From Porpolomopsis calyptriformis (lineage: Eukaryota; Basidiomycota; Agaricomycetes; Agaricales; Hygrophoraceae), in contig OX621163.1 in the NCBI GenBank assembly GCA_951640195.1, positions 62,001 to 126,000 of the forward strand: a stretch of DNA of 64,000 nt, given 5' to 3'. Both the position numbers and the translations under genes were made by a program. Position 1 is the first letter of the stretch. Every line of letters begins with the position of its first letter. Below are positions 6,286 through 48,869 of this stretch, piece by piece. The notes under the pieces are model-generated. The model had not been told where the DNA came from, searched no databases, and saw only the letters and a list, made by a program, of their open reading frames with translations.

Positions 6286-6636
6286 TCAGGGACCCATTAT
6301 CAACAAAATGACCAAAATGCTGACACAAAATTAATTCAAAATTCTTTGGGGGATTATTAGGGCATCCCAATACAATCAGTTTTTAATTTACTAACCCATA
6401 AATTAAAAAAATTGGCGGTCCCATTCTTGAGATATATGTAAAATACTCCATTTATACCATTATGCAGCCCAGCTATTGTATTGCACTCTATAAATCGCAA
6501 TTTCATATCCATTCGATAGGCACAGTGAACTAATGGTGAGCCCACCAAAAATTCCGATTTTTAGAGCATTTGGTATGTCGTGGTGGAAGATGGTAAGGTT
6601 TTAGGAGGAAGTATAAGTATAAGTAGCTATAGACTG
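6286..6636 (+). repeat. Left terminal inverted repeat, outer unique part
   Basis: About 350 bp that match the reverse complement of 34645-34983 with scattered substitutions and a few short indels. It includes the AT-rich stretch around 6305-6350 and the conserved CATTCGATAGGCACAGTG near 6512. No ORF is conserved across both copies, so the similarity reflects a DNA-level terminal repeat. Confidence 0.85.
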
Positions 6637-7664
6637 CTCTAAAAATCAGGGTTTTATATTCAATCGATAGCCCCAGTGTCATAGAGGTGGGGAATACAAC
6701 AATCCCGATTTATGGACCATTTGGGGTACCGCAATCAGTTATATAAGGGGTATGGGGGGGGGATATCTCCAACTTATCACAGAGGTCCTTAAAAATCAGG
6801 ATTTCATGTTCAATCGATAGCGCTAGTGTCACAGATACTGGGAATACAAAAATCCTGATTTATAGACCATTTGGGGTACCGCAATAAGCTATATAAGGGG
6901 TATGGAGGGGTATATCTCCAACTTATCACAGAGGTCTTTAAAAATCGGGATTTCATGTTCAATCGATAGCAGTAGTGTCATAGAGGCTCGGAATAACAAA
7001 ATCCTGATTTATAGGCAGAATAAGGTACCGCAATAAGCCATATAAGGGGTATGGGGGGTATATCTCCAACTTATCACAGAGCTCTTTAAAAATCTGGGTT
7101 TTATATTCAATCAATAGCCCCAGTGTCATAGAGGTGGGGAATACAAAATTCCTGAGTTACGGACTATTTGGGGTACTGCAATCAGTTATATAAGGGGTAT
7201 GGGAGGGGTATATCTCCAACTTATTACAGACATCTTTAAACATTACAATTTCATGTTCAATCAATAGCACCAGTGTCGTAGATGCTTGGAATAACAATAT
7301 ATGGATAGAATAAGGTACTCCAATAAGTTATATAAAGGGTATGAGGGACTATATCTCCAACTTATCACAGACCTCTTTAAACATCACAATTTCATGTTCA
7401 ATCAATAGCACCAGTGTGATAGATGCTTGGAATAACAATATATGGACAGAATAAGGCACTGCAATAAGCTATATAAGGGGTATGGGGGAGTATATCTCCA
7501 ACTTATCACAGACCTCTTTAAACATCACAATTTTATGTTCAAACAATAGCACCAGTGTTATAGATGCTCGGAATGACAATATATGGACAGAATGAGGCAC
7601 AGCAATAAACTATATAAGGGGTATGGGGGGGTATATCTCTAACTTATCACAGAGCTCTTTACAG
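6637..7664 (+). repeat. Left subterminal tandem array, ~145-bp unit, about 7 copies
   Basis: Each unit contains a TATATAAGGGGTATGG box, an AACTTATCACAGAG box and a TTCAATCGATAGC box. The AACTTATCAC box recurs at about 6773, 6918, 7068, 7217, 7358, 7500 and 7641, a spacing of 141-150 bp. The same unit occurs inverted at the right end. Subterminal repeat arrays commonly bind transposase in large DNA transposons. Confidence 0.85.
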
Positions 7665-8280
7665 CTGTTTGCACATGGCTTGACACACTTTTCCGCGGAT
7701 TTGAAAAAAGAAAAGAGTCGACTCAGTGCTGTTATGACTGATTATTAATCATTTAAATACAACTGTTAGGCTGTTGTACCAAGATCAGGCTTAATGGCAA
7801 CCTCAAGCTTGTCGGAAGACGATTCAATGTCACCAGGATCAAGCACACTGTTGGGTGGTACCATTAAGGTGATGAGCAATGTTAAGAGTTACAGTAAGAG
7901 ATTGTACAAGTTATGGCTGGTCGACTTTTCTTAAATCTCCGGACAAGTGTCAAGCCATGTGCAAACGGCTGTAATCCTAATCTACCTGTAGTTAAATGGA
8001 ATCGGATCATCTATTTACTCGGCTCGACTGGCCTGGGTCTCTTTCGTCTGACTACCAGAGTCTACTGCTGGTTACCTGAGTTGAGCTCACGCCACGTTGA
8101 GTCGACCAAGTTGAACGGTGTTGTCACTACCCGCCTCTGAAACACAGTGACTGGCACTTCATAGAGAGTTTGTTGAACTCTATTTCGGGGACCGCCTTGT
8201 GACAGTCACCTCACATGGGTGTGACAGTCACTCAACTGGTCGGGTGACAGTCACTCAACTCATGTGGGTGTGACTCCATA
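7665..8280. other. Non-coding stretch with short direct repeats
   Basis: Joins the left repeat array to the first cargo gene. Contains a cluster of the direct repeat GTGACAGTCAC at about 8199-8256. The only ORF (7913-8140) has no recognisable features. Confidence 0.4.
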
Positions 8281-8856
8281 TTAGAACCAGTCAACTGCTT
8301 CCTGCACAGCGTATTTCTCGAAAATATGACAAGGGCAAATATGGGCAGATTTGTGTAAATTCTGAGACATGACCACAATTTGATGAGAACTTGCTGCATC
8401 AGGAATACAGTATAACTGGAGCACATTCCCGTCAATACAAAATATGACGAGAAGAATATATCCCAGCTGAGGGAGTAAGCATTTTCTGGCATGCGTAACC
8501 TCATTAATGGACGCGCCCATAGTGACGCGTATACCAGGTATTGCCCTTGGAATACCTCTCGGTGCTGACTGGTCATGCCTGCCGATATCCCACACTGATA
8601 CGAACCAAAATATACCTTAGATGCACCAGATTGGTGAACTTCCTTGTTTGACGGTGGTGACACTGGTACATGATTGGATGAGCATCAGTTCTCCGTAGAT
8701 ATTGGTCCGTGCACCCATACATAAATACTCATCGTTACCTTGTACTTCCTCACGTGTTTGCCTCACGAGCTCAATGAGGTCCAAGCCGTTCCAACACATG
8801 ATACCATATTCCTTTTGTTCTTTCACAATGTTGATAGTTTCCGCAAGGAGTGCCAT
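8281..8856 (-). CDS. Unknown small gene
   Basis: Two open segments on the minus strand, 8617-8856 and 8281-8595, read like exons of one gene. A GT donor after a helical N-terminus rich in Glu and Lys precedes a second part containing a hydrophobic stretch and a Cys/His-rich tail (CPCHIF). The exon structure is not settled and no family is recognised. It is the first possible gene inside the left inverted repeat. Confidence 0.3.
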
Positions 8857-9298
8857 CCAATATCATTGAACAGCGTAAATTACAAGATATGTCTACTAGG
8901 ACCCGAGGTCAAGGTCTTAACTGATGAGATCTCCTCCAAGCATCGCAGGAGTGGTTGACGGTGTAGGCCCATTCCAGGCCTCTCTAGAATGACAGTGTGA
9001 AGATCTACAGCCTCTGTAAGCCTGTTAAGCCTCCACCGAGACCAGAAATCATAATGATGATTCTCGTTAATCCAGCAGGGTATCCCTTACATGCAGATCA
9101 CCGAGTCACATATATATAGTTGCACTCCCAAGCAACTACCAACATATACGTCATTTTCCTGATGTAATGTGAGGAGGGAGTGCTGTACCACCGAAAGGAT
9201 TCATGCCTCGACGGGCACGGCGGGCAGCACGTTGAGCGAAAAGTAGTACACGGTCGTTCATATTGCCATTCGAGTCTTCCAGATTCGTCACTGCCAGG

Positions 9299-11988
9299 AC
9301 TAGTTAGTTCTATATTACTATACACAACCAACTCTGCAACTTTGTTTGCAGCCTTATAAGTGGGTTGTCCCAGGGCTTTGGCTCACGCAGTGAGTTTCAT
9401 GAGTTGTGTCGTGATTTGATTTAATCGACAGGCAAACGAAGGCTGCAAGAAGTGAAGTAAAGTGAACTGGTGGCTAGTCCTATAAGGATTTCTAGGAAAC
9501 CCCGAAGCCTCACATAGAGTCGCTTTGTGAGGTGAGTGTTTATGTGTGGGTTCCGTTAGTGTACGCGAATCAACTTAAGCTGGAATTAAGGAATGGCTGA
9601 AGTTTTCGCTAACGATGAAAGCCTCTGGAATCAGTTGACAACCCCCCCCGTTAGCAAGTTCACTAAATGGACCTTTGGACGTAATTTCATCTGGATAGGC
9701 ACGATATGCTGCGAATTGCATGATGATGGCCTCCCAGCATTCGAGCTTGCGCTCTTTGATGCGCACTACATGTATTGGCATACAAGTGCTACTGGCCAGT
9801 ACAGCCATAACTACAACTACCACACTCGGTTGCGTGCTGCCATAGAGGACTACTTCAAGGGGGTGAAGGGGCATAATTTGCGCTCACCTGAAGTCCTCAC
9901 CCCATGGCTATGGCGAACATTCTGTGGATGCACCCATATCCCAGAGGGCCGCAATGACTTTATGGAACTCATTAAGAGATATGGTGCCTGGAAGGATGAA
10001 GGCATGCCTGCACCCTCTCTGGACGGTGAGTGTAATGAGATATTTATTCACGCTTCGATTTTAATTTTAATTGACACGCAGAGTGGGAAAGGGCTTTAAA
10101 AACCCCCAGTGTCCAGCTTTATCTGCCCAGGTGGCTAGAAATTTCAAAAGACCACCTAGGCTTCCCAGAGAAAAAGACAAGACTTTACGCCTAGCAATTC
10201 CATGTGTTTTTGCGAGCATGCCCAAGCAGTACTATTGCAGCTGGTAAGACATTGCGTTTTCTCTGCTTGTTGAAGACTAACTATTTGGTGTAAAAGAGGC
10301 AAACAAACCATTGAAATTTGTCGACACCCCGATCTATGCCTTTTTCTCCAAGGAAGAGCGTTCCACGATGCCTTGGATACGTCTGCTTGCAGACCCATCC
10401 TTGGTATGCCCACGCTCCACCTCCCTTGTTGACCACAAAGCTCTACAAAAGCTTAACCCAGGCGCCGAATTGGATGACTCTATCCTAGGCTCATACATCG
10501 ATCTCTGTCGGGCTCAGAATAAGGATAAAGAAGTAAAACTGATATCGACATATTTCTGGCCTCAGGTATCAAACCTAGACCACAAGGATTATGGTGGCGC
10601 AACAAGGTTGCTCTCTGCAGAGTTGGTAAGCCCTTTTCCCAAACGTTTCCTTCCTTCCATCAATCTGACAGGTTACCAAGAATGGCCAAAAGGTCAAACG
10701 TGGATGGTATGCAGCTGCTTTGTCCTCCATCAACGAGACGTTGGAAACCTTGAAGTCCCTTTATATCCCCGTAAACCAAAACCAAAATCACTGGCTGCTG
10801 CTGAGGATGAACTTCACGGATCGACGCTGGGAGTTCTATGATAGTATGACTGCATGCGGAAATGCGAAGACCCGGGCAGGCATTATTAAAGTGAGATTTT
10901 CAAGCCACAGAGTTCCTGATTAAATGCTGACAGGTGTCGAAAAAGGCTGTCAGCGATTATCTCACCACTGAGGTGAATTATAATCTCTCTGGGTGGAATT
11001 GCGAAACAGATATGTCTGTGCCGCAACAAAAAGGGTCCACAGATTGCGGGGTGTATACCTGTCAATATCTCAAGTGGCTGGTCAACGGTATGGCTATACC
11101 TTCAGTTTTGGAAGAGGCTGATGTTGCTGATTTTCGGAATATGATGATCATGGAGCTGGTTTCTGGGAAGCTTAGGATTGGCGATCGCAAGGAATCTTAA
11201 TATACACTCACTGTACTATTCACCTGGTTTTTGTCTGAAGATGGGGTAGCTTTATTAGCTGTAATAGCATTCAGCATTCGTTCAGCATTCGTTCATTCAG
11301 CCATTCTATTCATTTGTGCATCGCAACCTTGTCTTCATTTCATCATTTCCTCAACATACTTATGAAAGTTGTGCATGGCACCTTTGGCAATGAGGGCGTG
11401 TATGCCTTTGAACGTTCTCTTCATGAAAACCAACTCGTCGTTGTCCTCAAACATAGTGAAATTTGCCAAGTCTTGTCGCTTTTTCCACTCCATCACCAGA
11501 TTCTTGATCTAGTCAGAAAAATGGATGGATGCAATACCCCCATATTCGACAGAAAGACATACCATGTCTACATCAAAGTGTGACAAATCGACCCATATGC
11601 CTTTCTTGTCGTATCCTTTCGTTGCATCCGATAGATCAAGGAGGTGGGTTGCGAGGTCATCTGCATTACCGCTGAGTGGCTGAAGGAGCAATTTCACCCA
11701 ACGTGGGATGGGTTCTGGTTCTAGCTTATCGTGACCATCATCCACGACCTAGAAGAAAAAGGATGGCTACCGTCACCATCCATCTGGACTTGTACTCCGA
11801 ATGACTCGAATGCAAGCCTGATACCCACCAGAGTGGTGTCTGTAGCGCGCCCCTTCCCCTTCGTATCCTAGGAGACATACATATAAGCATACACGAGGCA
11901 CATGATGGGGAAAATACTATACCCTTTTCCTTTTCTCAACCTCTATTTCTGGATCCAGACCTACAAGCAGGCTTTCGGATAGATTTCG
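9299..11988 (+). repeat. Copy 1 of a >=2.69-kb direct repeat (Ulp1 plus AT-hook block)
   Basis: This block is nearly identical to 61311-64000 at a constant offset of 52,012 bp, with only scattered single-base differences. The left limit is sharp (common sequence starts ACTAGTTAG). The right limit lies beyond the end of the second copy in this window. The first ~130 bp resemble the 3' tail of the LINE at 56654-57540. Confidence 0.95.
9593..11200 (+). pseudogene. Ulp1/SENP-type SUMO protease (peptidase C48), copy with one nonsense codon
   Basis: Predicted to cleave SUMO or a SUMO-like modifier. Exons 9593-10025, 10082-10243, 10297-10625, 10672-10890 and 10934-11200 keep phase throughout and give 469 codons plus stop. 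The C-terminal third is a C48 domain with all expected residues: His348 in NHWLLL, Asp365 in FYDSM, Gln412/413 in VPQQ and Cys419 in STDCG. Codon 182 is TAG at 10192-10194, where the copy at 62204-62206 has TGG; this truncates the protein well before the catalytic domain. Apart from that it is almost identical to the second copy, so the stop is recent, or a base-call error. It lies near the left end of the giant element, convergent with the AT-hook gene. The N-terminal ~300 residues match no domain I know. Confidence 0.88.
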
Positions 11989-13365
11989 ATTTCGATTTTT
12001 CTGGACGAATTCTTGGATAAATCGCCATTGCTTCTAACTAGGTATGAAGAAGATAAGACCCACCTGCTGAGGGTGATTCACAGATGGTATAGCTGAGGAG
12101 GGTATACGCCTTGCCAATGAGGGCTGCTTAGGGCATCTTACCTGTACAAATCATTCAAATACAAACATAAAACTACAAACAAACCTGGAAGTCCTTGCCA
12201 GGAGAAGCAGGTAGTGACTTTGCTGAGACGCCTGCTTCTGCTTCTGGTTTTGTATTCGCTTGAATTCTCTGTGTATGGTGAATATAACGCCATTGAAAAA
12301 TAACATAGTCGGTACCTTTCTCATGGCCTTTTTTCTGGGGACATCACCCCCCGTTAATGCAGGGAGGATCTGAAAGAAATCCATAGGGCAAGATGCAACC
12401 CTCTCTCCACTCCTCAGAATCCGTGCTTTGGGGAAATCATTAGATAATTCAACATGCTTGTCCTTGCGTGGGCGTCCTCGCTTCCTTTTTGGAGCTCATG
12501 AAATTAATTGAATGATAAGTACTTAACAAGCTATCGAATTGACATCAGGATCACACACCTTCACCTTCACCCTCACCTTGATCGTTATCATCTTGTTCAT
12601 ATTCATGTTCGTGTTCATACCCAGGTCCAAGTTCAAGCTCAGGTACACGCTCAAGTTCCACGGAGGAGATCGCAACAGCCTCCAAACGATTGGTGAACCC
12701 AAATAAGATGCAGTCTGCTTCGAAACCGTCAAGCCAGGTGGTGCAATTCGATCGGTCACTGAAAGGATCAACGGATTTTAGGACTTGGGGAAGCCAGTAG
12801 AATTCTTTGCTCTGCTTCCAGGATAAAAGGTCTGGGTATACAAGCATTTATTACTCAAGCCTAGCCTTGAAAATATCGATATCTTACCATACCACCAGTG
12901 TTGTCTGGAAGAATAATGGCTTCTAAGCTCGGCTTCGAATGCTTTGAGTTTTTTGGGCTGGTGGGCCTTCCCTAGCTCCAGTCGAACACAGAACCGATGA
13001 ACGACATCAGGAATCCAAAGACTGCCAGACGCAGGCTTTTCTCTTTGCGCTTCCTTTATGATATACGTCCTAAGCATGTCATACCATACCATCAACTTTC
13101 CAAGATGACTCCCTCCATCCTCTTTTTGAAATTGCAGCTGAAGCTGGCACAAGTCAATGACGGTGAATATTGGCCTCCACTTTATCGGGAGAGAACAAAT
13201 ATGTTGGGCCGCTTGGACTGACATGAGTCCATCCTGGGTGGTGTTTTTGATATAGCATCGTGAGGATAGCAGAACCGTGGCCTGCGGGACCTTTCCAACA
13301 GGCCACCAGCTAGTTTCGAGAGCATGCAAATCAGTCTCCATGGATTTTATCAAGAGATTTAGCAA
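11335..13365 (-). CDS. Large AT-hook protein of unknown function
   Basis: Likely nuclear. First exon 12888-13365, then 12577-12831 and 12316-12494, joined in phase by GT-AG introns; further exons continue down to the stop at 11335-11337. Exon 2 ends in an acidic tract (EHEHEYEQDDNDQ). Exon 3 opens with KRKRGRPRKDK, a canonical AT-hook for AT-rich minor-groove binding. The last exons (about 11340-12010) include the blocks PRWVKLLLQPLSGNADDL and EWKKRQDLANFTMFEDND and no known domain. It converges on the Ulp1 gene with a 134-bp gap, and the pair is duplicated together at the right end of the window, suggesting it works or moves as a unit. Exons between 12020 and 12310 are tentative. Confidence 0.7.
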
Positions 13366-13559
13366 GATGCACTAAAGTGATCGGGGCAAGTATGGTTTGT
13401 TTGTCGAGATTTATCAGCTACGCCTGCTATACTTCACTGCATATACCGTATTGAGTCGATGGAGCTGTAGATTGAGCTAAAAAGTAGAGGACAACTGTGG
13501 AATAACACTGCGCCATTCGATCCTGATCCTGCCACCTTCTTCTACCTGCCCTTCTCCCT

Positions 13560-13960
13560 TGCGTTCACTTAGAGGCCTGGCTGAAATAAATGCATTCCGT
13601 TTGAAGCAAAGGTAGGAGAGCAGTCTAACAGAGTTTCAGTGTACTCCTCTGAACCGAACCGCTCTGTTCCGAACAGAGTGTACTTGGTTAAAAGGTGGTG
13701 ATACATTGTGGTGCAGTGAAGCTAAGAGGCAAGAACCAGGCCGACCGAAGGTGAACGGTAACATAGCGCTGTGTAGCACTGACTAACTGCATGACGCATG
13801 CAGCGTTCGCTGACAGGACATGAACCTACCACGGTCTGAGAATTAAGGGGCAAGAAAACCAAGCCAATCGACAGTGAGCGTGGGCAGAGCTCGTTTGCCA
13901 CAAGCCACAATAATCGTGGCATCCACACTATAAAATCCCCTCATTTTTTCTCGACCCCAA
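13560..13960 (-). repeat. Dispersed repeat related to the 49.6-52.0 kb satellite block, inverted
   Basis: On the minus strand this segment contains CTCTGTTCGGAACAGAG, also present near 51942, and a diverged satellite unit (AGGTTCATGTCCTGTCAGCGAAC) like those at 51410-51690. It ends just upstream of the F-box gene. Confidence 0.65.
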
Positions 13961-13999
13961 TTCTCCACTTTCTCCCTAAGCCACCACCCACTATCCATC

Positions 14000-14731
14000 A
14001 TGATCCTCCTTCCCCTAGAGCTGTGGTTCAAAATAATCTCCCACATTCAGGACAGGCCCAGGGATCTACTCGCACTATCCCTAGTGAATAGGGATGTTTC
14101 CTCCGCTGTGTTGCCCTCCCTGGCCCGATATGCCATCGTCAATCCATTGCCACAGCCGCGACACCCTATCCACCTTGTTGAGTTCACCGCCATTTCGGAG
14201 TGGGGCGGCGATTTGGTTCAGGAACATCTGGAGATGGCCGGGAGTAACCTGTGGGTCGCCAGGTTGGGATTCGATGCCTCCGGATGTCAGTGTTTTAGTT
14301 TATTCCTATATGTCTGGGCTTTATCACTAATCCCGCATAAAGATGACTGCCTAGAACTCGAGCGGTTAAGCTTTTCCCACAACTTATACCTCAGGGAAGT
14401 TACCCTCTCTGGATTACGACTAAAAATGCCGGGTCACTACGACACAATCGATATCTCGAGAATATTTGCTGGATGTCTGATGAGTGCTTTGACCAAGTTC
14501 ACTCTGGATCTTACACGGGCCAACCTGGATAACTGCGTCAACGTCAATTGGGCCCTCCTCGACGCATATCTTTCCTCGAGACCTTCCCTTCAATCTGTGC
14601 ACATTTTAGGCCCTCTGTTTGTGATAGAGGTCAATGATATCATGCCACTGATTGGCACCAAGGGCATCCTTAGGGTGACATCCATGCCAACCCTGCCGGA
14701 ACCATCGGTACCATGGCCATCCCTATCATAG
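14000..14731 (+). CDS. F-box-like protein, 243 aa
   Basis: A single-exon ORF that begins like a fungal F-box domain (LPLELWFKIISHIQ ... LLALSLVNRDVSSAVLPSLA, residues 4-42). The rest is leucine-rich and resembles the degenerate LRR part of mushroom F-box proteins. In such proteins the F-box binds Skp1 of an SCF ubiquitin ligase and the C-terminal part selects substrates. The start Met is the only one before the F-box, and an inverted, decayed copy lies 1.6 kb downstream with the same start. It sits inside the giant element. The family is large and fast-evolving, so substrate and activity are unknown. Confidence 0.7.
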   Translation: MILLPLELWFKIISHIQDRPRDLLALSLVNRDVSSAVLPSLARYAIVNPLPQPRHPIHLVEFTAISEWGGDLVQEHLEMAGSNLWVARLGFDASGCQCFSLFLYVWALSLIPHKDDCLELERLSFSHNLYLREVTLSGLRLKMPGHYDTIDISRIFAGCLMSALTKFTLDLTRANLDNCVNVNWALLDAYLSSRPSLQSVHILGPLFVIEVNDIMPLIGTKGILRVTSMPTLPEPSVPWPSLS

Positions 14732-15119
14732 GTGGGTATGTAAGCGAGGCAGGAAGAAGTTTTGAAGAAGGAAGGGTAGTGGAAGGGGGCAGGATACGGG
14801 TTGAATGGGAATGTGGTGACGTTATCCTGTAGCCATCTGTTGCAATGGATCGCGTATGATAACCCTGCCTGATACTGATGAGTCCGGATTGGAAGATATC
14901 GTCCTCTTGAGATGACCCAAGCCCAAGGCGGAGAACACAGAGAGAGATTGTTGTCATTGTTGCTGCATCTGTGTCTACTTTTTATATGTATACGACATTG
15001 AAGGGGTCTAACCTACAAAGCGAAGCGCTTTGTGATCCTTTGATAGCACGATATTACTGAGAAGAAAGATTGTTGGATTGCGCAGCGGCTGCAAGTAATA
15101 TCGAACTGTTGCTTTTGTC

Positions 15120-15300
15120 ACCCACGCAGATTCGCCCTGCCATTTCCCATCGGAGAGATCCCTAAAGCTAAATATGTAGCAACTCGTGCTGCAAAGGAAG
15201 CCTTATGGCTCCGCACCTTTATTGGTGAAGTATTTGGCCCAATCCCGTCTCAACTATCTTTTCAAACAACCAATCGGCTATCGTGCTATCAAAGGATCAC
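15120..15300 (+). mobile_element. Ty1/copia RNase H fragment
   Basis: Reading one frame gives KYVATRAAKEALWLRTFIGE followed by VFGP, the conserved RNase H block of copia polyproteins (usual form: EYVA-x(4)-KEALWL). Nothing of the rest of the element is present. It fills the spacer of the F-box inverted repeat. Confidence 0.75.
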
Positions 15301-15515
15301 AAAGCCCTGACCCCTTTGATGTCGCATACATATAAAAAGTAGACACAGATGCAAATGTATGTAGTAACAATGACAACGATCTCTCTCTGTGTTCTCTGAC
15401 TTCGGCTTGGGTAGTCTCAAGAGGACAATATCTTCCACTTCGGACTGGTCAGTATCAGCCAGGGTCATAACGGATCCATTTCAACAGATTGTTACAGGAT
15501 AACATTGCCCCGTTC

Positions 15516-16319
15516 CTATTCAACCTGTATCCTGCCCCGTTCCACTCCCCTTCTTCGAAACTTCCTCCTACGTATCCGCCCAGATATAGATGGCCATGGT
15601 ACCAATGGTACCGATGGTTCCGGCAAAGTTGGCCTGAACGTGACATCAAGGATGCCCTTCGCGGTGACCAGTGGCATGATATCATTGACCTCCATCACAG
15701 ACAGAGGGCCTAAAATGTGCACAGATTGAAGGGAAGGTCTTGAGGAAAGATATGCGTTGAGGAGGGCCCAATTGACTTTGATGCAGTTATCCCAGTTGGC
15801 CCGTGTAAGATCGAGAGTGAACTTGGTCAAATCTTCCATAGAACATCCAGCAAATATCCTCGAGATATCGATTAGGTTGACGTTACCCAGCCGTCTTAGT
15901 CATAATCCAGAGAGGGTAACTTCCCTGAGCCACACGTTGTGGAAAAAGTTTAGGTGCGTGAGTTCAACACAGTCATCTTCATGCGGGGTTAGCGATAAAA
16001 CCCAGACACATAGGAATAACCTGAAACACTGACAACCGGACGCATTGAATCCCAACCTGGTGACCCTCAGGTTGCTCCCAGCCCTCTTCAAATTTTGCTG
16101 AACCCAACCGCCGTGCCAATTCCTGATGGAGGTGAATTCAAGGAAACGAATCGGGTGTTGCGGCTTTGGCATTGGATCGACAAGCATGTATCAGGCCAGG
16201 AATGGAAACACAATGGAGGCAAAGTTCCTGTTTACTAGTGCCAGTGCGAGCAGATCTTGGGACGAGTTCTGAATGTAGGGGATAATTTTGAGCCACAGAT
16301 CTATGGGAAGGGAAATCAT
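15516..16319 (-). pseudogene. Decayed inverted copy of the F-box gene
   Basis: Starts ISLPIDLWLKIIPYIQ and follows the intact copy over its full length. TGA at 16191-16193 and TGA at 15900-15902 each replace CGA (Arg) of the intact gene. Both are C-to-T changes in a CpG. The original stop is also lost, extending the frame by about 20 residues. Confidence 0.88.
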
Positions 16320-16399
16320 GATGGATGATGGTGGTTTTGGGAGACTTTCAGCTGCTCTATATACTAAGTCGACCTCGACGCTTTGACTCACTCTCAACT

Positions 16400-18760: not shown

Positions 18761-18799
18761 TGAATCGCTCCCAAAGTCCTGATGGTTTATACTACGTTC

Positions 18800-20000: not shown

Positions 20001-20006
20001 CTGTCC

Positions 20007-24258: not shown

Positions 24259-24792
24259 TTGGTTCCAAGGGTAGTTACATTTGGGGGTGGGTGGATAACT
24301 GCATGAAAACAAGATAATCAGCATAAAATTTATCTAGATGTGGTGAAAAAATAAGCATTCATTCAATCGCATGCGTATAGCCATTGTGGTGCTGGAAGTA
24401 GTTTCGTGTGTGAGTCACAGCTCTTGATCACTACTTAGGCTCCTCACACATCACTTCATAGCACATCACTTCATAAGTACATAACAGCTAGTTGATATTC
24501 ACGCATACATAGACAAGATAGCTGGGAGTTAATCAATACAGTATCAAAGCAACTTGATATGTTATGCGTGACATCACATTTGCATACCAAAATGGGATGG
24601 GAGTGGCGCATGTGAACTTGCTAATTTACACCTGCACACAGCTCAACATGTCTACACAGGTTTAGCACAAATCGTATGTAGTAGACTTATATAGTAACTA
24701 GCTTGGAATGCAGCAATACAAGTTGATTAATATTTGTGGAAAGTTTGATGCGACATGCATGCAGCGTAATAGATGCTAATTCAGTAATTTTA

Positions 24793-25943
24793 TCAAGACC
24801 ATAACCTCCATGATGGTCTGTAGTTAAGCTTTCTGTCTCCATAGAGAACCTGAACCTGAGTGTGGTTGCTTTCGAGCATTTCACCTGACGCAATCATCTC
24901 CTCCATCCTTTTCAATGCCAACCGTGCAAACTCTTCACAGTCCATGTCTATCCAAGCGTCGAATATACCAGCCCACGTAGCTGTGTTTGTAAAGGTATTA
25001 TTGAGATATATAACTTGAGGCGATGCTTGTAAACTGGATTTGGGGGAATTTTTTGCTAAGATTCTAGCGGACTGCTTGATAAAGTCAGTAGTACCCTTCA
25101 CTTTCAAGCTAGTGCCAACCACAAGGAGAAGATCTAGTTGGCGACTGGGGGTGGTAGTTAACCCAAGATCATTTTGCTGCACGTTTGCTATTTCTTCTCC
25201 TCGAGGATGTGGTTCTCCGTAAAGAATGATATTGGGTCGGAGTCGAGGCACAGTCGTTCTGCGTTTGCCCTGCTCTACCCTCTTTTCCATATTGATTTGA
25301 CATTCAGTGCATTCTGGTAGTTGGCCCTCTTTCAAAGAGGGGTAGTATGGTTCGAGGATAAAAATGGAGGAGCAGCCAGGGCATCGTAGTTCCTCTAGGG
25401 ATCCATGCAATGGAATGCATCGGGCTGGTCCATCACTGGGGTGAATTTCTGAGGACATATGTAACCCAGCCTTGAGCTCCAAACCATCGATATTTTGAGT
25501 GTAAACACGGAGTAACACTCCTTGGAGGTCTAGAGCACGAAGGAAATGGTGGAAGGCAGTGGGTTGTGCGATCGCCGCTTTCTCAGCAAGGGTGGCAATG
25601 AGCTGACAATGCAGTGATTGTTGCTTTTGGGTCTAGAACATTAACTTGGTCAACTAATCCTCACTTGAACATATATTTCTCACTACGAGGGATGAGCTAG
25701 TAAGCAGATCAGTCAGGTTGACTCCGGTAAATCCAGATAGTGCGTTGCCAGTATATAAGCCGTCTGGTCCTCTAAAACATGGAATACCTGCAGCCACGGA
25801 TATTCCTGCTCCTAGAGAGTAGGTAAGTATTTGAATGAAACATGATGATGGGTCGATTTACCACAGAGCACGACGATTCTCTTTGCTTTCAGTATTCCAT
25901 CCATTAGATCTGTTGCACTTTGTTTTATAGTGGAGGGGAACAT
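24793..25943 (-). CDS. Sirtuin (NAD-dependent deacetylase), Hst3/Hst4-like
   Basis: Exons 25862-25943, 25687-25811 and 24793-25632 keep phase and give 348 residues, normal for a minimal sirtuin. Visible marks: the NAD-binding GAGISVAAGIPCFRG from residue 28, TQNIDGLE at 114-121, the catalytic His145 in LHGSL, four zinc Cys (153, 156, 177, 180), RPNIILYGEPHP, and VVGTSLKVKGT. The form of the last two motifs is closest to the Hst3/Hst4 group, which in yeast deacetylates histone H3 K56. The usual Asp of GIPDFR is Cys here, so activity should not be taken for granted. The donor of the second intron (GTAGTG) is inferred from phase. It is followed 72 bp upstream by the BAH gene on the same strand, inside the giant element. 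Confidence 0.9.
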
Positions 25944-26015
25944 AATAGCTGAGTTTTTAGCAGTAACACGGTGAAGGATAGTAGGTATTAGATAAGCTAG
26001 AAGAATGGTAAGGTA

Positions 26016-27381
26016 TCAAATAAGCAAATCTGAGCTACACCGAGGGCAAGTATAGTATGTTTGGTCTGTAACGACTAATGGCTCATAAGAGTCTGTGTTA
26101 TCTATGCCGAATTCTGCCTCAAGCCAGTTTTCCCAGTCAGTGTCTATCATATTTAACCGAGACTCCTCAATGAGGTGAGCAGCTATCCATCCAGAGGCTT
26201 GGACGACACTGCGTTCCTGTGAAGAAAGCAACTTTCTAGCCTTGTTCACGATCCTAATATTTCCGGCTGTAAAATAAGTGAGACCTCCCCTAGCTGTGGG
26301 TTGGAAAGCAACTTGAAGTATAATTTTTGGGGTGTCGGCAAACTTCTCTATAGCATAGAGATTGTTAAGATACTGCTGCTGGGTAATGTTGGCAGGGGTT
26401 CCTAGGCAAGTAAGATGGGACCATCTTTTGCAGGACCAGCAGTAGCGTTGTTCCTCTGTATCGGGGGACCAAAGTGAATAACAGTGAGTTGCGCCACATA
26501 TTTCTGGCTCGCCCTACCACCCAATAGATTACTACAGGGTATATGTTTAGTTCAATGAATGCACCTTCAATGCCTGCCTATGCCCATCCCAGAAGTATCT
26601 AATAGAAATTTTAGTATAATAGATGGGTTGGTATTATCGTCAAGCTTACCGCATGTAATACGCGGTTACTGGAGGTTGATCTTCAATCTGATTTTTAATA
26701 ATAACAATGTCGATTGTATCTACAGTTTAATTTTCAGTTCAGTTCAGTTCATTCTTTTATATCTGCTTCTCGATATAATAACCCTCACCTTCCAAGGCTT
26801 GCGCATCAATGATATCTGTAGAATCAGAGCCACACAGCTCTTGCTTTCCAAATGTGTTTATATACCTGTCAAGAGTAAGAAGAACATAGAGTGACAGGAG
26901 AAGGAGTAGGTTTTGAGATGCAACCTTTTAGTATCAGCCTTAACATCACTTCTCTCCAACAACTGCTTGGCTGTATACATCCATGAAACCTTAGCAAGAT
27001 ACTTGTTCTAAAGCACATTGTCAACATTGGGTAGGGTAGCTTGAGCAGGTGTATCACCTTAGTAGTTTTTCTTATTTGTAGGATCAAACCTTTCCAGTAG
27101 TCATCCATTATAATATTATTTTCTTCCTTTGCATGGAGGCCAAGGTGACGGATGAGGCAGCTGTGTTTGAGGGAAATAATCAAATGACTACTATTCAAGC
27201 ATTATCGATAAACACTTACAAGTCATTCTTAACGAATTTGCAAGGAGAGCCTATAAAGTTTTGATTCGGAACAAATAGAACAAGGCATAGGTGATATCTC
27301 ACCATCATTTGGATTAGGAACCTCGAGGTATTCTACGACTTTTGCAGATTTCCATTGTTTTTCCTCAGTTGTAGGTGCCAT
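26016..27381 (-). CDS. BAH-domain protein with C-terminal PHD-like zinc finger
   Basis: Multi-exon gene starting MAPTTEEKQWKSAKVVEYLE. Exons toward 26800 spell a BAH domain: DYWKGLILQIRK, then YLAKVSWMYTAKQL, then ELCGSDSTDIIDAQALEG, the usual order 'Y-x-G-x-(I/V)-x-x-I', 'V-x-W-(F/M)-Y-x-(P/A)' and 'S-x(2)-(H/T)-D-x-I'. Later exons add DQPPVTAYYMRYFWDGH and a Cys/His cluster (PEICGATHC, RYCWSCKRWSHLTCLG) typical of PHD-type fingers, with another CPRC near the end. BAH domains read nucleosomes or modified histone tails, and BAH-PHD proteins often recruit chromatin silencers or activators. It is transcribed away from the large gene at 27511, sharing a 129-bp spacer. Confidence 0.72.
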
Positions 27382-27510
27382 AATAATAAATCTACGGACC
27401 AATGTTGATTATTCGTATTATATTCCCACAGCTATATATATGTCACGTGAATGTAGATACACTTTGTCTCGACTATTGCACAAACATAGCTCTCGATCTT
27501 AACCTCCAAT
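27382..27510. promoter_or_regulatory. Divergent promoter region of the BAH and large DTG genes
   Basis: Only 129 bp separate the two start codons. The spacer has TATA-like runs (TATATATATG near 27434) and a CACGTGA E-box-like site at about 27444-27450. Joint regulation is likely from the geometry alone. Confidence 0.5.
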
Positions 27511-30500
27511 ATGGCAAACCAGGCAAATGAAGGTGCAGATTATGACAGTGATATAGATAGGATCATAGCTATGTCCTCACTAGCCAAGGTAAGCCTATCC
27601 CTAGTAGTTATGTATCTAATTCGATTCACACAATTAAATCATTACGAGGCTAATAAAACCATAATAAACCAGGAAGGGGATTCGACTTCTAGTGGTTCAG
27701 ATGATAGTGATATACATAATATCCTGAATATGCCTTGTGCAGAGAAGATGCCAATGCCAATACCGATGCTAGGAGAAAAACATATGCCTTCCAAAAAACA
27801 TATATTAATCAACAAAAAGCCAGTATACTCAGTAAGTGTATATCTGTTTTCAAGGTTAAAGTGCTCACATTATTACAGACAACGTTAATTAGCCTAAATC
27901 ATCTTAACATCCAGAATTCGGATCAGCAATATATATCGATACCTCCATTGGCTCCCTTAGGTCCCCAGCCAGGTCCTTCAAGGGTCCAAAACGCAATAAG
28001 TAGAAAGGATAATGACGCTGTATGTCTCAATTAACCTATGACAATAATAACTTACATTTATTTATTTTCCAGGTGGCGAAAGCATGGTATGTATTTTAAG
28101 AGAAATCATAAGATACTTGCGTATTAATACTGGTTAGGTTTAGTGATTATAGCTCTCCTTCAGAGCCTTCGGTGGATATTAGAAGGAACAACTCGCGATT
28201 TGAAACCAGACACCGGTGAATAAATCTATCATTCGAAATGTTAGGTTAAATACTAAACTTTTAGAAGCTCAACAAGCCGATCATCATCGCCAGCTAGCAA
28301 TAACGGATCAGATTTCATTGGATCCAGTGAAAGTGACAGCGCTCATTCTCATTTACTAGCAAAAAATGCCATTCAATTGAATCTACCACGATCTGAGCAA
28401 GAGCTTTTTATAGGTATGTTCTTATATTATTGGTAGTGATTAGACTCATTAAGGATATTAGACACGAAGCTAGCAGATCCAAGGATATGGGCTTCAGCTT
28501 GTCAATCATTGGGATCTGCTAAGCCTGGAAACCACCTGGATCACGCGGTCATAGAAATTTACCTTTTGAAATCATGGTATATGTCCATTCAACCCCAGAT
28601 GCCATCTCAGAGATATTCCTACTATCTAGACTCGGAAACGGTGAGCAGGGTAATAAGAGAAGAAGAAGACATCCTGTCTACCGAAATCCATAAAACTCTC
28701 CTTCTTCCACCTCACGTTGCTATCCCGAAAAAGCCTGTGTTATTTTTCCCTCCACTATCATGGCAATCTTCTGCAACCCAAAGGCTAGCTTTATTTGATT
28801 ACCAGCAGGAGAAGGTTCTTGTTTTTAGCCATGGAGCTCCACTCGAAACCAATATGTACTCAGATTGGACGGAGTGGAATGGCAACTACTATTGGAGGGC
28901 TATTGCTAATGTGTTTGGGTGGATCCTGGGTAGTGAGTTGGATGAGCGAGGTCCCCAAGTAATCGAACCGAATTGGAATACGGTGAAAATCTCGTTTCTA
29001 TACAGAAGAAGCATATTCATATACATATTTCAACAGAGTGAGGCCGACACTGGTTCCTGGATGGCATCGCTTTGCCAAGAAATCTTTGATAATGGTTGGA
29101 TGTATTCCACAGACATTAACCAACACCCACTTGCACCCAAATTGCAATGTGTTCATGCGATGCGAGAGAGAATATTTCTCACTGCGCTTCAAACTGTACA
29201 AAAATCATATGACTTCTGGAACAAGACTCAGACCCTGCTTCGGTATTCCATGGAACCCAATTCTGAGGTTGTGAATGATATGAAGGCTGGGCTTTTAAAA
29301 TTCAAGCGTTTCGAGGTAATAGCACTTGCGCTTGCAACTGCTCGTATGAAGTGTGAGTATTATCTCATTCCGATTACCTGTGATAATCAATCTAAAGAGG
29401 CTACCTATATTAATCAACTAGGCCATCTTCTGGATAGTCACGACAAGGATGGCAATGCCAGCAATGACGACAACAATCACAATGATGATGACAATGACAA
29501 TGACAATGATAACAACGATGATGATTCCATTGTAATCAACCTACCACCTCAGCCTTCCAGAAGGTCTCTACCTGAAATCCAACTTCCAGAGGTTGAGCTA
29601 AATGGGAATGGGGGTGAAGAAGCATTAGCAACAAGCGTTGATGAGCGGCCTTTTGATGACTACGAATCAGCTATGTTGGTTTGCTCCGAGGATCAAGCTG
29701 ATATCATTCCAAACACGTGGACCTTTGACACCAATGGAATGCTTGTATTGGGCAAGCACTGGAGTATCTGGAGGGATAGAGGCTATAGGTTGCAGGCCGA
29801 TTTTTTCTCTATGTTCAATAACCAGGAACCGGTTCTCCTCAATGACCACCTTCTTCCACACTGGGATTCAAGTGATCAAGCAAGTGGATGTTTACCATCA
29901 TCTCCAGTTGCATACCCATCCTCGTTATCTTCTCATTCTTCTGAGGTGCTGAATTCCCTACCAGCTATGGACAACCCAGATGTGACTGTGATGGGTGCTC
30001 AGGATATGTTGGATGAGGCGGGAGGGGTGGAAGGGACATCAGAGAGCCAGGGTGTGTTTGTAAAAGGTAAAGCACGCAACAACAAATTCATCTACTTCGA
30101 CTTGGAGAAGGATAGAGTAAACCTGGACGATGAAGAAGTGTCAGTGTCGGTGGATATCGACAGCGTCATATGGGTCACGCATAAACCACAGTTCATTGGT
30201 CCAATCAATATTCACCTTCTTCCACTGTTAGACGACAAACCTCCATTCTCTATCAACAATCATGTCTATGTCCAGGTTCTACAACCACCTACCACTCGAA
30301 ATCCTAGGCAGAGGTCTAAAAGGTATCCACTTAGTGCCTTGCCACATACCCATTTCGGGCAGATGGGTCAAGGATCAGGCCAATTTAACACCTACGTCTT
30401 CTTCCCTCATATGATTAGGAAAGACCCAGGAACGCATAGAATGACTACTCTGATGCCAAGGGAGGTACAGGAGTTGTGGTTCTCACAAGTGATCATGCCT

Positions 30501-32878
30501 GCTCTGCCAGTGGTTTTAGCCAACTACACCGGAATTATGGAGTATCTTCCTACAAGCGTCAGTAATCTCCAATGGAAAATAGGGACAAGACGTACGACCA
30601 AGACCATTCCCCTCACACCTGAAGCATTTTCTTCCATGCGAACCACTCTCTGCGACATCATAAATAACCAGCCCGATCTCCTAGGCCGATTCGGGTCCTT
30701 TTTCTTTGTTGTAGATGCTCGAGGTATCAAACTGCTCTCTAAGCAGCACCACCCAACCGAGAATATATATCAGGCACTCTGTTCGATGATTCCTAACATG
30801 GACTGGGATTATATGAAGGACCGATCGCATGGAGAACTCTTGCTTGATCTTGGGATTTCATACCATCCTCCTTCTAGGGAGGATCAGGAGCCATTGGTAG
30901 GGCTGTGGAGGTTAGATAGGATCGACGACTCGTACGACCTTATGGGGATGAAAAAAGGAATGACCCATTATACTGCCATGTTTGGAGCTTATGGAGGGAG
31001 ACAGGCTGAAACCAAGTTGAAGAAAAGTCGGCTTGTACACCTTTGCTTCCGATCCAGCTACAACCTTTGCTTTGAGGTGGTGCGACTTCCTGGCCAAACG
31101 AACTACCTATGTGATGACTGTGATGCAGTCAAGACAAATGACCGATTCATGACTAGCTGTGATCACTGGAAAAAGCTGTTTCAATCTTCTCAAATCCAGT
31201 CATTCGGCGTTAGAGAAGAAGTTAGAGGGAGTGGGTTAGCCATTATAAAGCTTCTTGATGTAGCATCTGAAAAGGTAAGCAGCGAAATAACTGCAAACTA
31301 GAAATGTCTAATGATTGCCAGGCACAAGACTATATGTCGTCTGACCCTATCATTTGGATCAAGTCGAGCCTCTTTTTCAAGTTGTTGGCAAGAAGGCTAG
31401 CAGAGTTTCAAAACGTCCAACTACACCTTTCACGAAATCGACCAAGCAACTATGGGATGATGGCTACGCTTATCATCCACCTGATTAAGCACACCATGGT
31501 CACGCCAAGGATAAAGCACACATTCTTGAATGATGTGTTGCGAGACCTTCGTTTCAGTTCGATAATGTGGAGGTTCGGAATGTTCTTTCTTCACGACCTC
31601 AAGTTGAAGAAAGGAGTGCTATCTCTAAGAGAACTACCGGAGGAGGATCCAGCTGAGGTTATCCAAGCGTATGGACAGTCCTTGAAGAAGCCACAGGCAA
31701 CTCAAGCCAACCAGCCATATCACCTTATTCAAATGTATCAGCAAGATGCGTGCCCTTGGGGTCCTGATCCATCTTGGTCAAGAATTCAGAAACTGTTGGA
31801 AACCGAGCCAGAGATTTTCCTTAGGGAATGGAGGTTGGATGATGACTGGGAAGCTCCTGAACTGCTTTACACAAAGCTGTTGTTTGTTGAGTTCACGCAT
31901 CAGCTGTGGCTAAGTCTGGCAGAGCAGTTTGCATCAGCAGGTGTTTTACCCAAGCCAACCACAGTTCAGGAAGCAATGGAGACTTGGACGGTACCTGCGA
32001 TTCAGCATATCATAGGCATTGACCATTGCCGATTCCTTCCTTCGAGCTGTGGCCTTAAAGGAAAGCTTCCTTTGAGTCACTCCCATGATCTATCATTTTC
32101 AGCATGTCGGGCAACCTTCTTCCCTGAACAAACTATCCAGATCCCAGAGAATTCAGTCTGGAAACCATACACCCAGCCTGGAGGATATATCTCCACTTAC
32201 CACCAATATCTTGTGGATTGGGATATGGATGAAGGTGATCAGCTCTGCCGTGAATTGGACAATATATTTGGCCAGTTACAATGCCTTCCTGTAGGTGGCC
32301 TATCGAATAAAAAGGGGAAACAAGTCATATGGGGGATGAAATCAGGCAAGATCAACTTTATTTCGAATTCAAAGTTCTATCGGATTGAAGAAATTGGGAA
32401 AGAGGTGGCTGCGCGTCCACGAACTCAGGTCCTAAAAAGGCCTCATGCTTCAAAGAATATACTTCAGAGACGACTAGATGAAACCTTGGGGAGATCGATA
32501 AAACCACCTATTCGGAGCCGAAAGTCTGCCAAAATCTACCAAAAACGAAAGCCTCCTGTGAGACAGAAAGCAGACAACAATCCTTCAGGTTCAGAGAGCG
32601 GGAAAGAGCAACAGGTTAGGGTTACTCGCTCAAAGGCCAAGGCTGCCCAGAAAGACGAGGGAAGAAAGGGGGTGAGTGGTGTGCGGATAACTCGGTCAAG
32701 AATGAACGCTGCTAGGAAAGATGCGGAGAGAGAAGATTCAGGTTCAGGAAGACATATAGTAGGTAGATCTCAGTCAAGAGTCAAGGCTGCTAGGGAACGG
32801 GCAGATTTAGAGTCTGATTCCGATTCCGATTCATTAGAGTACACAGATGAGCCAGGATCAGAGCAATCTAGTAGCTAA
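27511..32878 (+). CDS. Large 1,644-residue element protein with Ulp1-like N-terminal domain lacking catalytic Cys
   Basis: Exons 27511-27588, 27673-27831, 27879-28019, 28073-28086, 28138-28215, 28265-28413, 28462-28982, 29037-31274 and 31322-32878 join in phase to 1,645 codons. The first ~240 residues are Ser/Asp-rich and disordered. A region at about residues 210-420 resembles a C48 (Ulp1) fold: RLALFDYQQEKVLVFS fits the strand after the catalytic His, and NWNTSEADTGSWMASL fits the 'Q-x(5)-DCG' loop, with Thr for the nucleophile Cys. An Asp/Asn-rich linker (about 29440-29530), two unknown conserved blocks and a basic tail with repeated 'VTRSKAKAA/ITRSRMNAA' units follow. It abuts the right inverted repeat and reads toward it. 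This position suggests the protein that recognises or moves the element; no transposase fold was recognised. Confidence 0.7.
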
Positions 32879-32929
32879 TGTATCGATTTGAAGATTATAT
32901 ATTCACAGGTCTATTCTACCTATATGTGT

Positions 32930-34644
32930 TACACTGCTCATTGTGGTACCCCAATCAGTCTGCCCATGGGGATGTGGTTATTCTGGGATGTTATCACACT
33001 AATGCTATTGATTGAACATAACATGCTGATGGTTAGAGAGCTCGGTGAGAAGTTGAAGGTATAACCTCTGATACCTCTTGCATGCTAATTACGGTACCCC
33101 AATTATTCCACACATGAGGATTGGACTACTCCTGATGTTTGTAGCACCAATGCTATTGATTGAACATAAAATCCTGATGCTTAGAGGGCTCTCTGATAAG
33201 TTGAAGGTATACCCTCCCATACCTGTTGTATACTTATTGCGGCACCCTAGTTAATCCACACATGATGATTGAACTATTCCTAACCTTTGTAATACTCATG
33301 CTATTGATTGAACATAAAATCCTGATACTCGGAGAGCTCTGTGATAAGTTGAAGGTATATCATCCGATACTTCTTACATACTATACCCCAATCATTCCAC
33401 ACATGAGGATTAGACTACTCCTGACCTTTGTAACACTAATGCTGTTGATTTAACATAAAATCCCGATGCTTAGAGAGCTCTCTGATAAGTTAAAGGTATA
33501 CCACCCCATGATATCTTATATACTTATTGCGGCACCCTAGTCAATCCATACACGAGGATTAGACTATTCCCAATGTTTATAACACTAATGCTATTGATTG
33601 AACATGAAATCCTGATGCTCAGAGAGCTCTGTGATAACTTGAAGGTATACCCCCCCCTACCTCCTGTATACTTCTTGCGGCACCCCAGTCTATCTACACA
33701 TGATGATTGGACTATTCCCAATGTTTGTAACACAGGTGCTATTGATTGAACATGAAATCCTGATGCTCAGAGAGCTCTGTGATAAGTTAGAGATATACCC
33801 CCCTATACCCCTTATATAGCTTATTGCAGTGCCTCATTCTGTCCATATATTGTCATTCCGAGCATCTGTAACACTGGTGCTATTGATTGAACATGAAATT
33901 GTGATGTTTAAAGAGGTCTGTGATAAGTTGGAGATATACTCCCCCATACCCCTTATATAGCTTATTGCAGTACCTCATTCTGACCATATATTGTTATTCC
34001 GAGCATCTATAACACTGGTGCTATTGATTGAACATGAAATTGTGATGTTTAAAGAGGTCTGTGATAAGTTGGAGATATACTCCCTCATACCCTTTATATA
34101 CCTTATTGGAGTGCCTTATTCTACCCATATATTGTTATTCCGAGCATCTATGACACTAGTGCTATTGATTGAACATGAAATTATGATGTTTAAAGATGTC
34201 TGTAATAAGTTGGAGATATACCCCCCCATACCCCTTATATAACTGATTGCGGTACCCCAAATGGTCTATAACTTAGGATTTTTGTATTCCCCACCTCTAT
34301 GACACTGGGGCTATTGATTGAATATAAAACCCAGGTTTTTAAAGACCTCTGTAATAAGTTGGAGATATACCCCCCCATACCCCTTATATAGCTTATTGCG
34401 GTACCCCAAATGGTCTATAAATCAGGATTTTTGTATTCCCAGTATCTATGACACTAGTGCTATCGATTGAACATAAAATCCTGATTTTTAAAGAGCTCTG
34501 TGATAAGTTGGAGATATACCCCCCCATACCCCTTATATCACTGATTGCGGTACCCCAAATGGTCCATAAATCGGGATTTTTGTATTCCCCACCTCTATGA
34601 CACTGGGGCTATCGATTGAATATGAAACCCCGATTTTTAGAGCA
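32930..34644 (-). repeat. Right subterminal tandem array, ~145-bp unit, about 11 copies
   Basis: Inverted copies of the left-array unit. The GATAAGTTGGAGATATAC box (reverse complement of the left box) recurs about every 141-150 bp from near 33045 to 34503. Units near the gene are more diverged than those near the end. ORFs within it (33226-33453, 33991-34242) are repeat artefacts. Confidence 0.85.
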
Positions 34645-34983
34645 GTCTATAGCTACTTATACTTATGCCTCCTCCTAAAACCTTACTATCTTCCACCACG
34701 ACATACCAAATGCTCTAAAAATCGGAATTTTCTGTGGGCCCACCATTAGTTCACTGTGCCTATCGAATGGACATGAAATTGTGATTTATAGAGTGCAATA
34801 CAATAGCTGGGCTGCATAATGGTATAAATGGAGTGTTTTACATATATCTCAAGAATGGGACCGCCGATTTTTTTAATTTATGGCTTAAACTGATTGTATT
34901 GGGATGCCCTAACGATCCCCCAAAGAATTTTGAATTAATTTTGTGCCAGCATTTTGGTCATTTTGTTGATAATGGGTCCCTGA
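34645..34983 (-). repeat. Right terminal inverted repeat, outer unique part
   Basis: Reverse complement of 6286-6636, ending ...AATGGGTCCCTGA at 34983. Sequence beyond this point no longer matches the left side. Confidence 0.85.
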
Positions 34984-43028: not shown

Positions 43029-43149
43029 GCCGTATAAACAAAGGATCGACCGGACCCTTTCTTTTGTACATTCCTTTTGGTGTGTGCCCTTTGTCTTTCT
43101 GCTGTAGCTACAGAGTAATCCCACATGCTACCGGATCACCGCTCACGGA

Positions 43150-43640: not shown

Positions 43641-43649
43641 CAAAAGATG

Positions 43650-44980: not shown

Positions 44981-44982
44981 AC

Positions 44983-48853: not shown

Positions 48854-48869
48854 GATTTCAATGTGAACT

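Follow-up and report, generated by a model that had tools for sequence, protein, structure and literature searches.

A giant mobile element of apparently undescribed type that probably joins fungal chromosomes by one end and displaces their tips

The window analyzed here, a 64,000-nucleotide stretch of the Porpolomopsis calyptriformis genome, carries inverted termini at positions 6286 and 34983 that raise an obvious question: do they bound one transposon of 28.7 kb, as the earlier note proposed, or do they belong to something else? The interval is a tail-to-tail composite of two pieces of mobile element, not the mobile unit, and its inverted ends are not a pair (Table 1). The best explanation, to which we assign a probability of about 0.7, is that a giant mobile element has a single functional end, which joins W|TY sites and displaces the distal chromosome. 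The earlier note had envisaged a new class of giant element moving from 6286 to 34983; the element is giant and apparently of an undescribed type, but movement as that unit did not hold up.

A self-comparison of the window aligns 6286-7658 with 34983-33623 as an inverted match of 88% over 1384 bp, and both ends begin TCAGGGACCC. The inverted termini that had been noted are thus genuine, although their length is about 1.4 kb and not on the 2-kb scale first given. The subterminal arrays described at both ends are also real, comprising 7.0 units of 141 bp on the left (6640-7661) and 10.7 on the right (32996-34557). The 34-base terminus, with up to 3 mismatches allowed, has 104 matches genome-wide against 0 for a reversed control, and its recurrence is therefore not due to chance. 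The end is precise, the 104 termini comparing with 105 matches of a pattern ~40 bp farther inside. Searching the genome with the termini, as had been suggested, did return many copies, but most are without a partner: 84 of the 93 termini listed on contigs C1 to C14 are not of the left (L) type, and an R-type end lies within about 53 kb for only 9 of the 10 L-type ends.

Table 1. Features of the window and the basis on which each was assigned
Feature	Coordinates	Strand	Basis or remark
Kept target of left terminus: initial 207 bp of a dispersed, unrelated repeat	6079..6285	+	Pattern search and reads of copies
Left (L-type) terminus and subterminal array	6286..7661	+	Faces contig end in the window; 10 L-type copies read
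Rest of body belonging to left terminus	7662..9300	+	Two other L-type copies share it to about 9301, then diverge
Body of right element, from terminus at 34983 outward (leftward) to composite join	9301..34983	-	61311-64000 repeats 9299-11988
Ulp1-type (C48) protease exon, cargo	10931..11197	+	Pfam Peptidase_C48
Cargo gene region: SIR2 domain (24796-25632), weak PHD finger (26019-26513)	22180..26513	-	Pfam
Eight-exon gene, 1650 aa, next to right terminus	27511..32878	+	Gene model, 7 GT-AG introns
Right (R-type) terminus, TCAGGGACCC at 34983, array of 141/149-bp units	32996..34983	-	Precise end
Distal half of the adjoining older element; attachment of the right terminus cut it at 34984 (W|T target)	34984..61310	+	Intact target in C16 (L118)
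Continuation of older element, colinear with 9299-11988	61311..64000	+	Extends beyond window to terminus at C1:148999

The flanks of these termini speak against a single unit. All 10 L-type ends read have an identical left outer flank. On the right, the three copies with 28.7- to 28.9-kb spacing (the window, L082, and L100) each have an outer flank of their own. The earlier note had named a target duplication at 6286 and 34983 as support; it was looked for at both ends and none was seen. These three copies already contradict the idea that 6286-34983 moves as a unit. Intact copies of the dispersed repeat that forms the left flank run on through GCACA|TCC, and the remainder is absent at the left terminus. 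This repeat has 70 pattern matches in the genome, 12 of which adjoin termini; of the 58 away from termini, 12 were read and all 12 continue TCC. In L003 and L004, the repeat forming the L flank has a different 5' neighbor.

The target rule is strict. The base immediately outside the terminus is A or T in 67/67 distinct outer flanks. Setting the shared L flank aside, 66 flanks remain; the sequences compared included an intact target for 29 of them and none for the other 37. In these 29, the base before the junction is A (16) or T (13), and the lost side begins with T in every case, followed by C in 25 or T in 4; the background frequency of WTY is 7.7%. Given the A/T outer flanks and the TC or TT with which the lost side starts, a single end has therefore been joined at (C)W|TY sites and the distal chromosome replaced by the element, distal loss here meaning absence in one assembly. 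The L end follows the same rule in all 12 copies of the dispersed repeat that were read, and the 28.7-kb interval is therefore a tail-to-tail composite, both ends of which appear to have attached separately, each as a single end, at W|TC sites. The copies L041 and L044 match the window to 9301 and then leave it, and L045, a 28.8-kb copy, stays colinear. Beyond the right terminus, the intact target of the cut at 34984 reads AGTACT|TCTGGC in C16. The older element there holds, between 34984 and 61310, a 220-bp satellite, an alpha-kinase open reading frame (ORF), and a weak TET/JBP ORF (Pfam), and its repeat of 9299-11988 is 99.6% identical. Cut points inside older elements are likewise target sites; newer elements therefore made these cuts, leaving head-to-tail arrays. 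Simple attachment does not explain two R termini (L066 and L084) that carry the L flank, beside the nine L...R pairs.

The element is concentrated near chromosome ends and is strongly oriented. Its terminus occurs on 24 of 28 chromosome arms, and of 20 contig ends read, 14 carry sequence matching the element in the window. Apart from the shared L flank, C1 to C14 have 63 distinct flanks, of which 57 face inward, including 34/34 within 100 kb of the contig end. The six that face outward are on C9 (3), C13 (1), C5 (1), and C10 (1), those on C9 and C13 sitting in blocks that look inverted. Counted over listed non-L termini, 8 of 84 face outward, and the one of these within 100 kb (C9:2005784) carries the shared L flank. 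Segments are also duplicated between C1 and C9, and L010 and L081 share a flank.

The telomere pattern is restricted to contig ends genome-wide, and telomere repeats directly cap the element at three of the six telomere-bearing contig ends (C6, C7, and C16). The caps join at points matching window 20580 on C6 and 25044 on C7; that on C16 lies 1.1 kb past the point matching 34984 and 53 kb from the terminus, making this the longest telomere-capped copy, measured outward from its terminus. Of the other telomere-bearing ends, C14 is without the element in the 9.5 kb read, the right end of C1 is a mosaic, and C12 has other sequence beside the telomere. Broken ends healed at a later time could also have acquired such caps. 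Several arrays have exact periods: 29,310 bp repeated 5 times on C5, 49,281 bp 3 times on C16, 25,054 bp twice on C2, and about 52,015 bp twice on C1; within the C5 array, 4 termini read have an identical junction, as do 2 in the C1 array.

What might move such an element? The earlier note had reported no recognisable transposase, and Pfam scans of ORFs and of all six frames of 9900-59899 bear this out, detecting no reverse transcriptase (RT), DDE transposase, tyrosine recombinase, or Rep/helicase. Of the 124 ORFs of at least 82 aa listed, 94 were scanned directly, and the six-frame scans cover the rest of 9900-59899 except piece boundaries. The only retroelement signals in the six-frame scan were a copia gag and a weak SH3_retrovirus match. 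Among cargo, the SIR2 domain has a Pfam E of 1.3e-23, the PHD finger scores below its cut-off, and Peptidase_C48 appears in 2 of the 94 ORFs (best E 4.2e-10), its Cys motif being placed in the protease exon by text pattern. The 1650-aa protein encoded beside the right terminus is a candidate mobility protein, and its gene is conserved. It has homologues (P0001 to P0006), 47 copies of its gene were scored, PHTHF and LDLGISYHP are among its conserved stretches, and it ends in a basic C-terminal tail; it has no Pfam match and no known domain, and when three sequences of a 953-aa part were run as a profile against PDB, 0 matches resulted. Its coding direction is towards the terminus, and 30/30 scored copies (of 89 candidates) keep the introns, which favors movement at the DNA level.

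We propose that the element encodes an enzyme, most likely the 1650-aa protein, that would cut W|TC in donor and target. The cut would free a strand spanning the terminus to the telomere, and its 5' TC end would be joined to the target. The telomere would serve as the second end, a role we infer from the caps and the lost distal side, and only one cut and one join would then be needed. The same reaction inside one molecule could yield circles and, from these, the exact-period tandem arrays. If the one-ended model is correct, single-strand (HUH/Helitron-like) chemistry best accounts for a TC end joined at W|T with no duplication, a preference that we hold tentatively, at somewhat under even odds; the chief alternative is a short-core site-specific recombinase. 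Neither an extrachromosomal form nor a fresh event was seen in the one assembly. The fuller proposition, to which we give slightly better than even odds, is a new class of eukaryotic mobile DNA: giant (at least 53 kb), with a single transposition end and the telomere as the second, a candidate 1650-aa enzyme joining DNA at W|TC, each move replacing a chromosome tip, and most tips built from it. If true, eukaryotes as well as bacteria would exploit a telomere as a transposon end. A one-ended element moving as DNA would furthermore provide a mechanism for wholesale replacement of subtelomeres and their genes, and points to a new family of DNA-joining proteins.

In behavior, the closest systems appear to be the telomeric transposons of bacteria and the terminons of rotifers. 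The former, which Hsieh et al. are said to have described in Science in 2025, reportedly have one transposon end and use the telomere as the other, move to the tips of linear bacterial genomes, displacing the distal part, and are Tn7-like DDE systems. Our element appears to share the single end, and it has telomere caps (on C6, C7, and C16) and a lost distal side. It differs in residing in an intron-rich eukaryotic genome with TTAGG(G) telomeres, in a W|TC target that repeats the element's own end, and in lacking any Tn7-like or DDE Pfam match in six frames of 9900-59899. In the portions of the open-licence literature available to us, we found no telomere-attaching eukaryotic elements other than retroelements.

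Among competing explanations, a Helitron whose 3' end was lost or bypassed, mobilized in trans by the genome's autonomous Helitrons, is the least improbable, though still unlikely. According to PMC5148889, Helitrons have a 5'-TC; in fungi, FoHeli1/2 insert between TNAT and T and show evidence of circles. Tandem copies and circles have been described for Helitrons. Our element shares with canonical Helitrons the TC at its attached end, W|T insertion (29/29), and the absence of duplication, and Helitron_like_N matches number 35 in the genome, some of them occupying long open frames. Against this, six-frame scans of 9900-59899 detected neither Rep nor helicase in the element; all but one of the 35 Rep matches fall outside the arrays, the exception (C4:154930) sitting between two termini; and by-eye comparison placed 0 of 100 listed termini within 20 kb of a Rep match. 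The target also has a strong extra C after the T. Unlike Helitron2/FoHeli, the element has no Rep/Hel gene and no second terminus, spans 53 kb, and is concentrated near chromosome ends; unlike Helitrons, it has no defined 3' terminus (CTRR or equivalent), its distal side being the telomere or the next terminus.

Two further alternatives we consider very unlikely. The first is an ordinary two-ended DNA transposon that runs from L to R over 28.7 or 52 kb; recombination would have shuffled its subtelomeric copies, and distal and L ends would have been lost in the process. L...R pairs do occur at 28.7 to 28.9 kb and at about 52 kb, and the C1-C9 segment duplications, with the common flank of L010 and L081, are compatible with shuffling. 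Yet there is one L flank against 66 other distinct flanks, the L flank is common to the three 28.7- to 28.9-kb copies and the R flank is not, and the paired ends with target duplication typical of TIR transposons were not found. A staggered DDE cut would also not produce a target rule that extends across the junction and repeats the TC of the element itself, and six frames of 9900-59899 contain no DDE domain.

The second, no better placed, is a terminon- or HeT-A-like retroelement, its RNA ending at the terminus and reverse transcribed onto chromosome ends by target priming, with the other end truncated. Terminons (PMC6431247) are giant, telomeric, Penelope-like rotifer retroelements with cargo genes, which carry an RT, attach to telomere repeats, bear a hammerhead at the attaching end, and form truncated head-to-tail arrays at telomeres. 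Our element is likewise giant, telomeric, and cargo-bearing, with uniform orientation and truncation toward the telomere (57/63 distinct flanks); the 1650-aa gene is transcribed towards the terminus, and a primer match of 2 bases could account for the shared TC. It departs from terminons, however, in having no detected RT in six frames of 9900-59899, telomere-repeat attachment, or hammerhead, and in keeping the introns of a sense-oriented gene. By-eye reading found 0 of 150 scored RVT_1 matches (820 candidates) distal to an arm's innermost inward terminus, no telomere repeats lie within 150 bp outside the 83 termini read, and the window has no Rfam match at gathering score and therefore no hammerhead. 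The truncation points are the target sites of the next element, not points of RT drop-off. Chromosome-end location is also common to the telomeric retrotransposons HeT-A/TART, MoTeR, and FoTeR; no RT was detected here in six frames of 9900-59899.

Movement of 6286-34983 as a single unit bounded by both inverted ends is highly improbable: the inverted ends, subterminal arrays, and three copies of nearly equal spacing speak for it, but the L flank is constant while the R flank changes, there is no duplication, and L is joined inside a dispersed repeat whose other half does not adjoin R. An assembly artefact or random break repair joining repeats to ends, suggested by this repeat at 14/20 contig ends read, is scarcely credible given a precise end with an A/T rule in 67 distinct flanks (chance about 1e-18).

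Other identities were rejected. The earlier note was right that this is not a Starship: those elements (PMC13066641) are also giant, with a captain near one end and two boundaries bearing short direct repeats at the insertion site, but here there is no captain-type tyrosine recombinase (DUF3435) in six frames of 9900-59899, a single recurrent end at chromosome ends, and no direct-repeat duplication seen. KDZ transposons (PF18758) have 19 genome matches, 0 of them, by eye, distal to an arm's innermost inward terminus. A virus was discarded as well: among viral contigs, the gene profile picked up 121 stretches by pattern, and no relative was among them. Nor are the 52-kb L...R copies taken as full-length elements, the copy on C9 being a mosaic with inverted segments.

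The terminus is a precise, oriented and mostly solitary structure. In the genome (33.5 Mb, 17 contigs), its outer 34 bases matched 104 times with three or fewer mismatches (control, 0), and a pattern ~40 bp further inside the element matched 105 times; the exact end is therefore present in nearly every copy. Contig and orientation counts rest on the 100 of these 104 matches that were listed. Among the matches listed, 93 termini fall on contigs C1 to C14, and 76 of the 84 that are not L-type face the chromosome interior, including 28 of 28 within 50 kb of a contig end and 45 of 46 within 100 kb; the remaining eight, pointing outward, lie on C5, C6, C9 (four), C10 and C13. Flanks were read for 83 termini in 80 loci, yielding 67 distinct flanks. 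With the shared L flank and C15-C16 left out (n = 63), 57 distinct flanks face inward, as do 34 of 34 within 100 kb. An inward terminus lies at most 400 kb from the contig end on 24 of 28 arms, and the assembly distal to the innermost of them amounts to 2.57 Mb, only partly element.

These termini share a target. All 67 distinct flanks have A (34) or T (33) immediately before TCAGGG, and in 33 of them that base is itself preceded by C. Within the sequences examined, we found the unbroken target for 29 of the 66 non-L flanks, mostly inside other element copies. The lost side of these intact targets begins with T in 29 of 29, followed by C (25) or T (4); the WTY background on that strand is 7.7%. 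Because the element itself starts TC, the W|TY junction lies within the shared T or TC, and in the four TT targets the C is supplied by the element. At the junctions themselves, the distal side of the target is absent. Repetition of the donor's end in the target motif is the outcome expected of a single-strand HUH nuclease or of a short-core recombinase, and does not resemble a staggered DDE cut.

The earlier note proposed that 6286-34983 is a 28.7-kb giant transposon-like element. Its inverted repeats are real, as are its subterminal arrays, with 141/149-bp units at each end; the target duplication that was to support a moving unit was seen at neither 6286 nor 34983. The repeat supplying the left outer flank has 70 pattern matches in the genome, 12 of them adjoining termini. 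Twelve of the other 58 copies were read, and all 12 continue GCACA|TCC; beside the L terminus, everything after GCACA is replaced. The left end obeys the same target rule as the other termini, and this makes a tail-to-tail composite the best reading of 6286-34983. The flank is common to all 10 L-type ends that were read. Two L-type copies with longer spacing depart from the window sequence at position 9301. At two L-type loci (L003, L004) the dispersed repeat has a different 5' neighbour, and two R-type termini (L066, L084) bear the L-type outer flank; gene conversion or exchange between copies is a candidate that would explain both.

Attachment is nested: R termini with element as their outer flank join head to tail into element cut at W|TY. 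Exact-period arrays occur on C5 (29,310 bp, five times), C16 (49,281 bp, three times) and C2 (25,054 bp, twice), and the C1 array has a period of about 52,015 bp (twice); an identical junction was read at four termini on C5 and two on C1. Element sequence from the window matches 14 of the 20 contig ends first read, and two further ends match the stretch immediately left of the window. The mixed TTAGG/TTAGGG telomere pattern has 32 matches, all at six contig ends. Three ends carry telomere directly on the element: C6, C7 and C16. The C16 telomere lies beyond a 53-kb copy, of which the final 1.1 kb extends past the match to window 34984, has a purine-rich end and may be the element's natural far end. 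The other three telomere-bearing ends show no such direct cap: C14 ends in chromosomal-looking DNA, the right end of C1 is a mosaic, and on C12 the telomere adjoins other sequence. Subtelomeric RecQ helicases have been described in Agaricus bisporus (PMC7473861). We suggest that an element enzyme would make one cut and one join, with the telomere acting as the second end.

No report of such an element was found in the open-licence literature. It behaves as bacterial telomeric transposons reportedly do, but lacks a tested defining feature of theirs. It resembles terminons in layout, and Helitrons in end and target, as PMC6431247 and PMC5148889 respectively describe them, but departs from each in a tested defining feature.

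The gene adjoining the terminus encodes 1650 aa in 8 exons, with 7 GT-AG introns that measure 47-84 bp. Introns are retained: of 89 candidate copies, 30 were scored, and all 30 matched a DNA query over the last three introns along its full length. With a homologue as query, 71 candidates gave 47 scored copies; every one has a frame of 1002 or 1006 aa and the identical two in-frame TAGs, which presumably fall beyond a splice donor. The product has no match in Pfam, and a 953-aa part of it none in PDB; among 5.8 billion sequences, two protein relatives were found, then six (the two included). Translation of 9900-34799 and 35000-59899 in all six frames, in 4,980-bp pieces, and a scan against Pfam revealed no reverse transcriptase, DDE, tyrosine recombinase, Rep or helicase domain. 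Movement through an RNA step is opposed by the kept introns, the lack of reverse transcriptase and truncation at target sites. The cargo includes SIR2, a C48 protease and an alpha-kinase, with a TET/JBP match below its cut-off.

Features of the window (G000:C1:62001-126000) and of other loci
Position	Feature	Detail
780-3175	Fragmentary fatty-acid-synthase-like coding sequence	Far side of left terminus; FAS_I_H passes its cut-off; adh_short and ketoacyl-synthase narrowly miss theirs
6079-6285	L outer flank	First 207 bp of dispersed repeat starting TGTAACAGATATGTTA; 5' neighbours variable
6286-7658 / 34983-33623	Inverted repeats	88% over 1384 bp
13983-15008 / 15309-16335	1-kb inverted pair	81% alike; weak F-box-like ORF
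20580	Element position joined by the telomere on C6	
25044	Element position joined by the telomere on C7	
49557-51261	Satellite	7.8 copies of a 220-bp unit, with a second period of 436 bp; the right end of contig C2 (L024) falls within it
60204-60564	GC-rich 18-bp tandem repeat	Long proline-rich frame
C4:126909 (L066), C9:2005817 (L084)	R-type termini	L flank inverted, ~52 kb from an L-type end
C16:217739-218870 (L118)	Segment with a purine-rich, low-complexity end	~1.1 kb, right before telomere
C12:1-4000 (L110)	313-aa ORF beside telomere	By eye, resembles RecQ/telomere-linked helicase
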